DNA of 64,000 nt from Diplosphaera chodatii. Its lineage: Eukaryota; Chlorophyta; Trebouxiophyceae; Prasiolales; Stichococcaceae. The position numbers were made by a program, and so were the translations under genes. Positions within the stretch are counted from its first letter, which is position 1. Every line of letters starts with the position of its first letter. Shown piece by piece: positions 58,577-60,014 of the stretch. The notes beneath the pieces are model-generated. The model ran no database searches. It had not been told where the DNA came from and was given only the letters and a program-made list of their open reading frames with translations. The stretch covers positions 1,426,001 through 1,490,000 of the forward strand of contig JAALGY010000062.1 of the NCBI GenBank assembly GCA_032358165.1. The letters run 5' to 3'.

Positions 58577-59679
58577 ATGAACCTCGGGGGCATGCTCGTT
58601 GTTGCTGTCTTGGCCTTCGTGATCAGCGCTGATGTGGGTGGTCTGCTGCGGGGCGAAACCGCCAACGCCCAGGTAATCCTGATGTTGTTGCTGTGCCGCG
58701 CTCGCACAAATGCTCACTATACAGTACTCTCTTGGCCATTCTCTCTTTATGATTGACATGGTCTGTTGCGTTCTGGGCATAAGTATGCTGTGAGCGAACA
58801 TCGTTCTGAAGGACTCGAAGGGAAGTGTTACAGGGTCTGCTGGTGGCACAGGAACCCTCAGCAGCGCCAGCTGCCGCACTCGATAGCGCCAGCCTAGGTG
58901 GCTGCGTGCACATCAGCTTCTGCGGCAGCTGATCCTACCGGGGGGCGTTCGTGCAGGCGCAGCAGGCCATTGCACAGCGCTTCCCGGGCACGGAGGTTGT
59001 CCCCAGCAACTACCCGCCACCCCCGCACAAGGTGCTGCCGACCTTGCCTGGTCGCTGTGTTGAACCTGCACAGTCCCGCTTCCGTCCAGTCCGGTGGGTC
59101 ATGCTGACAGGGTTGTGTTGGTGTTGTTGCGCAGGTCGTGCTCGCTCGACTGCTGGGCTATCTGCAGTACTCGGCGATCGCGGCAGCCATCTTTGCTGAG
59201 CGGGTGCTGCCGGCGCTGGGCTGGCCAGTCACCCCGCAGCTGGCGCAGACTATAAAGGACAAGCGCTTCGGCGTGATCCTGGGCTCCTGGTGAGGGGTGG
59301 CCGGGCGTGGCCATGTTGACGATCTGGCCTGTGCCGGCTCGCTGTATCATTGCTTCCAAAGGAGCTGCAGCCAAAAGTAGCACATGTGGTGTCCGTAGGT
59401 TTGCAGGCAACATGATCGTGAACAGCCTGACGAGCACAGGGGCCTTCGAGGTGTTTTTCGACGGCCACCAGGTGAAGCCCTCCACCTGCCTGCACACATT
59501 TGATGCGGGTCATGCGTGCCCATGCCACAGTTGCAACAGACAGCATCGATCTGCCTCGAGCTCTTTGTCGACACAACGTTGCACGGGCGCAGGTGTACAG
59601 CAAACTGCAAACAGGGCAACTGCCAACAACCCAGGAGCTGTTTTCGAGCATTGAGCGCCTCATGCTTCCCGCCCACTAG
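58577..59679 (+). CDS. SELENOT: selenoprotein T (UGA-encoded selenocysteine at 58930-58932)
   Basis: ER-membrane thioredoxin-like oxidoreductase. Five exons: 58577-58672, 58834-59031, 59135-59289, 59399-59471 and 59593-59679. Total 609 nt, 202 aa including Sec, phases consistent if TGA at 58930 is read through. The N-terminus is a signal/anchor (MLVVAVLAFVISADVGGLL). The redox motif is HISFC-G-S-U-SYRGAF, a CxxU matching CVSU of animal SelT. Next come AIAQRFPGTEVVPSNYPPPP, a hydrophobic hairpin LLGYLQYSAIAAAIFAERVL, FGVILGSW/FAGNMIVNSLTSTG, AFEVFFDGHQVYSKLQTGQL and LPTTQELFSSIERLMLPAH before the true stop TAG at 59677. Sequence downstream of the TGA continues as conserved SelT across four more exon segments, so it is not a stop. 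A SECIS element follows in the 3'UTR. Automated annotation would probably truncate this gene. Confidence 0.95.
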
Positions 59680-59766
59680 GTCCAGGGTACTTGGCAGCGG
59701 CCATGCTGAGCATCGTGCAGCCTGTCCAATTCAGCAGGTGTGGGCATCCACCAGCTGTTGGTTTGT

Positions 59767-59844
59767 CAGCATCCTCGGATCATGACGGCTGCCCCTGAAA
59801 CGGCCACATGCCGTAGGGGCGGTCTGAAAACCACTGAGGTGCTG
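59767..59844 (+). promoter_or_regulatory. SECIS element (form 2) of selenoprotein T
   Basis: Stem-loop 88 nt after the stop codon. Helix 1: CAGCATCCTC (59767-59776) pairs with GAGGTGCTG (59836-59844) with one bulged T. The SECIS core has ATGA at 59782-59785 opposite TGAA at 59825-59828, forming the non-Watson-Crick quartet. Helix 2 is 10 bp (GGCTGCCCCT with AGGGGCGGTC, two G-U pairs). An internal loop contains the conserved unpaired A residues (59798-59799), 12 nt after ATGA. A terminal mini-stem ACGGC/GCCGT closes a CACAT loop, which makes it form 2. It recruits SBP2/EFsec to decode UGA as Sec. Confidence 0.92.
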
Positions 59845-60014
59845 TCAAAGGCCACTGCTGAGAGGTGGTCGACACTAGTTCATCAGATCCCTGGGTCACT
59901 GTCGTTGTCCTGGCACAGCCTGTTCTGTCTCTTTGTACATGCAAGCACATCAGCCTCAAACGACCTCGTATAGCCTTTCAAACTCCACAGAGCACAGCAC
60001 ACGCCACATGCATC

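Follow-up and report, generated by a model that had tools for sequence, protein, structure and literature searches.

A gene encoding selenoprotein T (SelT), in which an in-frame UGA interrupts the conserved active-site motif, has been identified on the forward strand at positions 58577-59679 of the window, the 64-kb stretch C52:1426001-1490000 of an 85.6-Mb assembly of 55 contigs. We regard it as almost certain that the gene is functional, that it comes from an alga which decodes selenocysteine (Sec), and that it encodes selenoprotein T with the UGA read as Sec. The evidence comprises the structure of the gene, a SECIS element downstream of it, the constraint evident between two copies of the gene and several genes of the Sec machinery.

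According to the mechanism proposed here, the SelT mRNA would retain the UGA within the CxxU active-site motif and the SECIS element in the 3' UTR would recruit SBP2 and eEFSec with Sec-tRNA-Sec, upon which the ribosome would insert selenocysteine at the UGA and then read on to the TAG. The product would be a thioredoxin-like oxidoreductase of the Rdx family with a hydrophobic N-terminus, probably located in the ER and serving a redox function.

Gene structure and domain organisation of SelT

The gene is made up of five exons with a joined coding sequence of 591 nt, comprising 196 codons followed by TAG. Exon 1 (58577..58672) carries the start ATG and encodes the hydrophobic N-terminus, exon 2 (58852..59031) holds the CxxU motif, and exons 3 (59135..59289) and 4 (59399..59471) are followed by exon 5 (59593..59679), which ends with the terminal TAG. 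The in-frame TGA, codon 59, is situated at 58930..58932. One intron precedes the exon with the TGA and three follow it, all of the GT-AG type. The earlier note had placed the ATG at 58577 and the TGA at 58930-58932 in a C-G-S-U motif, with SelT sequence continuing through three further introns; these coordinates are correct and the three introns have been found. For exon 2 another acceptor at 58834, which is in frame and would add six residues, was considered and dropped as it is not conserved in a second copy of the gene on contig C35; that copy conserves the acceptor at 58852, which is the one adopted.

The TGA codon is placed in the CxxU motif FCGSUSYRG near the start of the Rdx domain. When the Sec codon is entered as Cys, the protein scores 58.9 bits against the Pfam family Rdx (PF10262; cut-off 22.6) and 77 bits against the NCBIfam family TIGR02174, CXXU_selWTH (cut-off 34.2). 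The five-exon model, these family scores and the SECIS element agree with the claim of the earlier note that a complete SelT gene with an in-frame UGA is present. A hydrophobic insert, visible in the sequence, lies inside the domain of the 196-residue protein and stretches the match to the 74-position Rdx profile, which spans residues 51-189. We take this size and the hydrophobic insert within the domain to be typical of SelT, unlike the short SelW. Comparison with the PDB gave no close relative, the best match being C17orf37 (4e-7) followed by Selenoprotein W (0.32). A search of the whole genome with PF10262 gave no matches at E <= 0.001 and missed SelT itself; as the exons of SelT split the domain, this result is uninformative on other SelW or SelH genes.

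Two relatives in the protein collection align to the query with 70% identity across 63% of its length (P0001) and with 63% identity across 61% (P0002). Both continue the same protein, but their sequences open only seven residues downstream of Sec. They appear to be SelT genes truncated at the TGA, which is what the earlier note had expected of standard pipelines. The model described here thus offers an annotation of SelT, supported by two copies, at a place where ordinary pipelines would cut the gene.

The genome also encodes two RbcS genes, one past 1.3 Mb on contig C32 and the other past 2.1 Mb on C21. Nuclear rbcS is a trait of the green lineage, and the two genes suggest that the organism is a green alga.

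SECIS element downstream of the gene

A SECIS element has been identified at 59774..59838 on the forward strand, where the Rfam family RF00031 is matched over its full model with 45.1 bits (gathering score 35; E 5.4e-6 in the 64-kb window). No other Rfam family exceeds its gathering score in the window, and none of 14 control genomes matches the RF00031 model at E <= 0.001. SECIS scoring had been named beforehand as a test of the locus, and the score lies above the cut-off. The element is of form 2 with an ATGA / TGA core. Its helix 2 has 10 bp, the apical bulge contains AAA and the mini-stem has 5 bp; the lower helix is interrupted and reaches 59762-59849 in the fold. The core quartet, 10-bp helix 2, unpaired A residues, mini-stem and bulged helix 1 that had been described for this hairpin from the letters of the sequence are all seen. 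Folding gives -29.4 kcal/mol (z -4.00) for the 65-nt element and -45.6 kcal/mol (z -5.88) for a version of 93 nt, a stability that none of 200 dinucleotide shuffles reaches in either case.

In a genome-wide SECIS search, for which 133 of 846 first-look candidates were scored, four matches were found at E <= 10, a threshold at which 4 of the 14 control genomes match too, none of them over the cut-off. The third match, with 28.6 bits, is that of the C47 gene treated below; the fourth, with 20.6 bits, is situated on C44, and the count of selenoproteins is to be read as a lower bound.

A second copy of SelT and constraint beyond the TGA

A search of the genome with SelT gave ten exon-level matches, all belonging either to the gene in the window or to the copy on C35. 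The C35 copy has the same TGA and exons of the same lengths (96, 180, 155, 73 and 87 nt), and its protein is 93% identical to that of the window copy; the introns are 52-72% identical. The C35 SECIS scores 33.9 bits, just below the RF00031 cut-off of 35, and each of its three helices contains a single disrupted pair. Covariation of SECIS pairs between these two sequences is no better than in shuffles, 375 of 500 of which reach it.

After the TGA the two copies differ at 36 sites, distributed over codon positions 1, 2 and 3 as 3, 5 and 28. The dN/dS between the copies is 0.128 over the 137 codons after the TGA and 0.158 over the 58 codons before it. Purifying selection acts on the SelT codons after the TGA; a protein stopping at the TGA would not show such dN/dS and third-position bias. 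The diverged pair of SelT genes makes it possible to see where in a selenoprotein gene constraint acts.

Standard translation halts at a TGA, and the locus could accordingly be a pseudogene or could end there as a short peptide, with the remainder spliced out or untranslated. We consider this extremely improbable in view of the low dN/dS over the codons after the TGA, the equal exon lengths in both copies, the match to Rdx on both sides of the TGA and a stretch of 78 nt spanning the TGA that is exactly identical between the copies. On codon shuffling, a run of that kind containing the TGA has P 0.005 and the longest identical run between the copies P 0.023; these tests are modest, were chosen post hoc and count whole codons, so that conservation of the protein contributes to them.

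Compared with C35:1406500-1476499, the whole 64-kb window shows colinearity to some 65 kb in 15 blocks of 73-80% DNA identity, counting only blocks of more than 250 bases. SepSecS, eEFSec, SelD-like sequences and both types of tRNA-Sec likewise each occur as two loci, placed on different contigs. These paired loci suggest two diverged subgenomes, for which hybridisation, an old duplication or a mixed culture are possible origins.

Machinery for selenocysteine incorporation

Four matches to tRNA-Sec exceed the gathering score among the 53 of 7507 first-look candidates that were scored, and all four have the anticodon UCA and G73 beside the acceptor stem. The tRNA-Sec model also matches every one of the 14 control genomes at E <= 0.001, with 5 over the cut-off, and therefore only the gathering score together with the anticodon is counted as evidence. 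Two of the genes have an intron in the anticodon loop, of 14 nt at C33:1112294-1112393 and of 13 nt at C50:478213-478311. These introns follow A37, and letters of the intron pair with the anticodon. The other two genes, at C19:1662629-1662714 and C25:2430986-2431071, are intronless and identical to each other. Between the mature form of the C19 type and that of the C33 type there are 17 differing sites; both sides are changed in seven pairs, six of which go from one standard pair to another.

Fragments of SepSecS have been identified on C9 and C31 that score below the whole-protein cut-off of a model matching 1 of 14 control genomes; the exon on C9 has seven matches in the PDB, all of them SepSecS (best 1.9e-13). 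Fragments of eEFSec are found on C44 and C13 with 38.7 and 35.6 bits (cut-off 27), a model to which none of the 14 controls matches, and an exon of eEFSec has a weak PDB match (E 0.013). An L7Ae exon on C25 is SBP2-like, its best PDB match being SECIS-binding protein 2 (1.6e-6; next 0.059). Four of 11 L7Ae matches were examined, among which only that on C25 is SBP2-like and a second SBP2 copy was not identified.

SelD/SPS-like fragments on C26 and C27 score 57 bits (cut-off 125) and do not discriminate, since the model matches all 14 control genomes; a motif search for the active-site residue of SPS found none. PSTK is matched with 26 bits over the P-loop part only, at two loci (C22 and C13), and the C13 P-loop frame has no PSTK match in the PDB. 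The SelD/SPS and PSTK assignments are uncertain. Our estimate for Sec insertion is unchanged by the uncertainty of SelD/SPS, because the other evidence carries the claim. The SelT gene had earlier been taken as the mark of a Sec-decoding genome in which tRNA-Sec, SBP2 and EFsec should be sought elsewhere, and the tRNA-Sec genes with UCA anticodon, together with exon fragments of SepSecS, eEFSec and SBP2, bear this out.

A DUF3253 gene pair with an in-frame TGA

A pair of genes with a DUF3253 domain and an in-frame TGA has been identified at C47:1423080-1423693 and C15:1598483-1599144. The C47 gene model has two exons, a DUF3253 domain that scores 78 bits when the TGA is entered as Cys, and the TGA in the motif ATCUPSD, and a SECIS-like match of 28.6 bits, below the cut-off of 35, lies 14 nt after its stop. 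The C15 copy has the motif STCUPSE and a SECIS-like match of 29.2 bits, also below 35, positioned 26 nt after the stop. Three relatives were considered; the residue aligned to the TGA is Cys in P0003 and in P0005, and P0004 does not extend to that site. From these sequence features the pair is probably a second selenoprotein of the alga, a candidate that is directly checkable.

DUF3253 was absent from the literature searched, which is weak evidence as other names are possible. The candidate could correspond to the hypothetical selenoproteins of Ostreococcus (PMC2375036) or to the 'Hypo' or 'MDP' families of PMC7539508, as far as the available portions of these papers describe them.

Candidate redefinition hairpin adjoining the UGA

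A hairpin is predicted at 58938..58987 on the forward strand, starting 5 nt after the UGA and lying within the 78 nt that are identical in the two copies. The 60 nt after the TGA fold with -34.8 kcal/mol and z -4.06, a stability reached by 1 of 200 shuffles; for the 75 nt after it z is -2.72, reached by 2 of 200. Among 2000 synonymous recodings the fraction folding equally well is 0.001 for 60 nt and 0.0005 for 75 nt. A fold scan over 177 windows per copy gives its lowest z at the TGA in the C35 copy, and in the copy of the 64-kb window the cluster at the TGA (z -4.24) is second to one near coding position 420. Hairpin covariation is not obtained because both copies are identical there. It is plausible that the hairpin following the UGA is a redefinition element (SRE), and the SelT gene thus points to a candidate of this kind in an algal SelT.

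That stronger cluster covers SelT coding positions of about 417-483, with z down to -5.2 in the window copy and -3.88 in that of C35, and the hairpin is accordingly not the sole fold outlier of the coding sequence.

A hairpin adjoining the UGA could alone favour readthrough, and the accessible part of PMC4561486 describes readthrough with an SRE that does not depend on Sec, so that the UGA might be read through, or reassigned for example to Trp, without selenocysteine. This reading is very unlikely when set against the SECIS in both SelT copies, the tRNA-Sec genes with UCA anticodon and the position of the UGA at the Sec/Cys of the CxxU/CxxC motif. In the gene model of the C47 DUF3253 gene, TGA also appears to serve as the stop codon. 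The readings of the TGA as an ordinary sense codon and of the locus as a pseudogene were both rejected in favour of a selenoprotein gene in which the UGA specifies Sec.

Comparison with known selenocysteine systems

The SelT gene itself is ordinary for green algae. According to the sections available of the respective papers, over half of the 36 algal genomes surveyed encode SELENOT with Sec (PMC7539508), a green-algal SelT has CxxU and Sec (PMC9404770; Chlamydomonas Cre14.g616950), and the SECIS of Ostreococcus SelT has a mini-stem that is long (PMC2375036). As Sec-SelT is thus already documented in green algae, the gene is less unusual than the earlier note implied.

The literature searched gave no description of three features of this Sec system, namely a Sec-containing DUF3253 protein, intron-bearing and intronless tRNA-Sec genes coexisting in an alga, and a redefinition hairpin in the coding region of an algal SelT. 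Taken jointly, these three are put forward tentatively, at a little short of an even chance.

The SelT described here is like that of other green algae (Cre14.g616950, Ostreococcus) in its CxxU motif and Sec, the comparison being with the published descriptions; it is unlike them in its two diverged copies and the candidate hairpin after the UGA. Signals from redefinition structures are mentioned for SELENON and SELENOT in the available text of a review (PMC8704476), and for UGA-containing eukaryotic SPS genes in that of PMC4561486. The hairpin resembles the SREs of these sources in being a stem-loop just 3' of the Sec UGA and is unlike known SREs in that it is predicted only and is identical in two copies of one genome. 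An intron-bearing tRNA-Sec of Daphnia was reported as the first in eukaryotes, according to the available part of PMC5330540. The algal genes are like those of Daphnia pulex, as described there, in the short C-loop intron 3' of the anticodon and in being duplicated, and they are unlike them in belonging to an alga and in the presence of an intronless pair alongside the intron-bearing pair.
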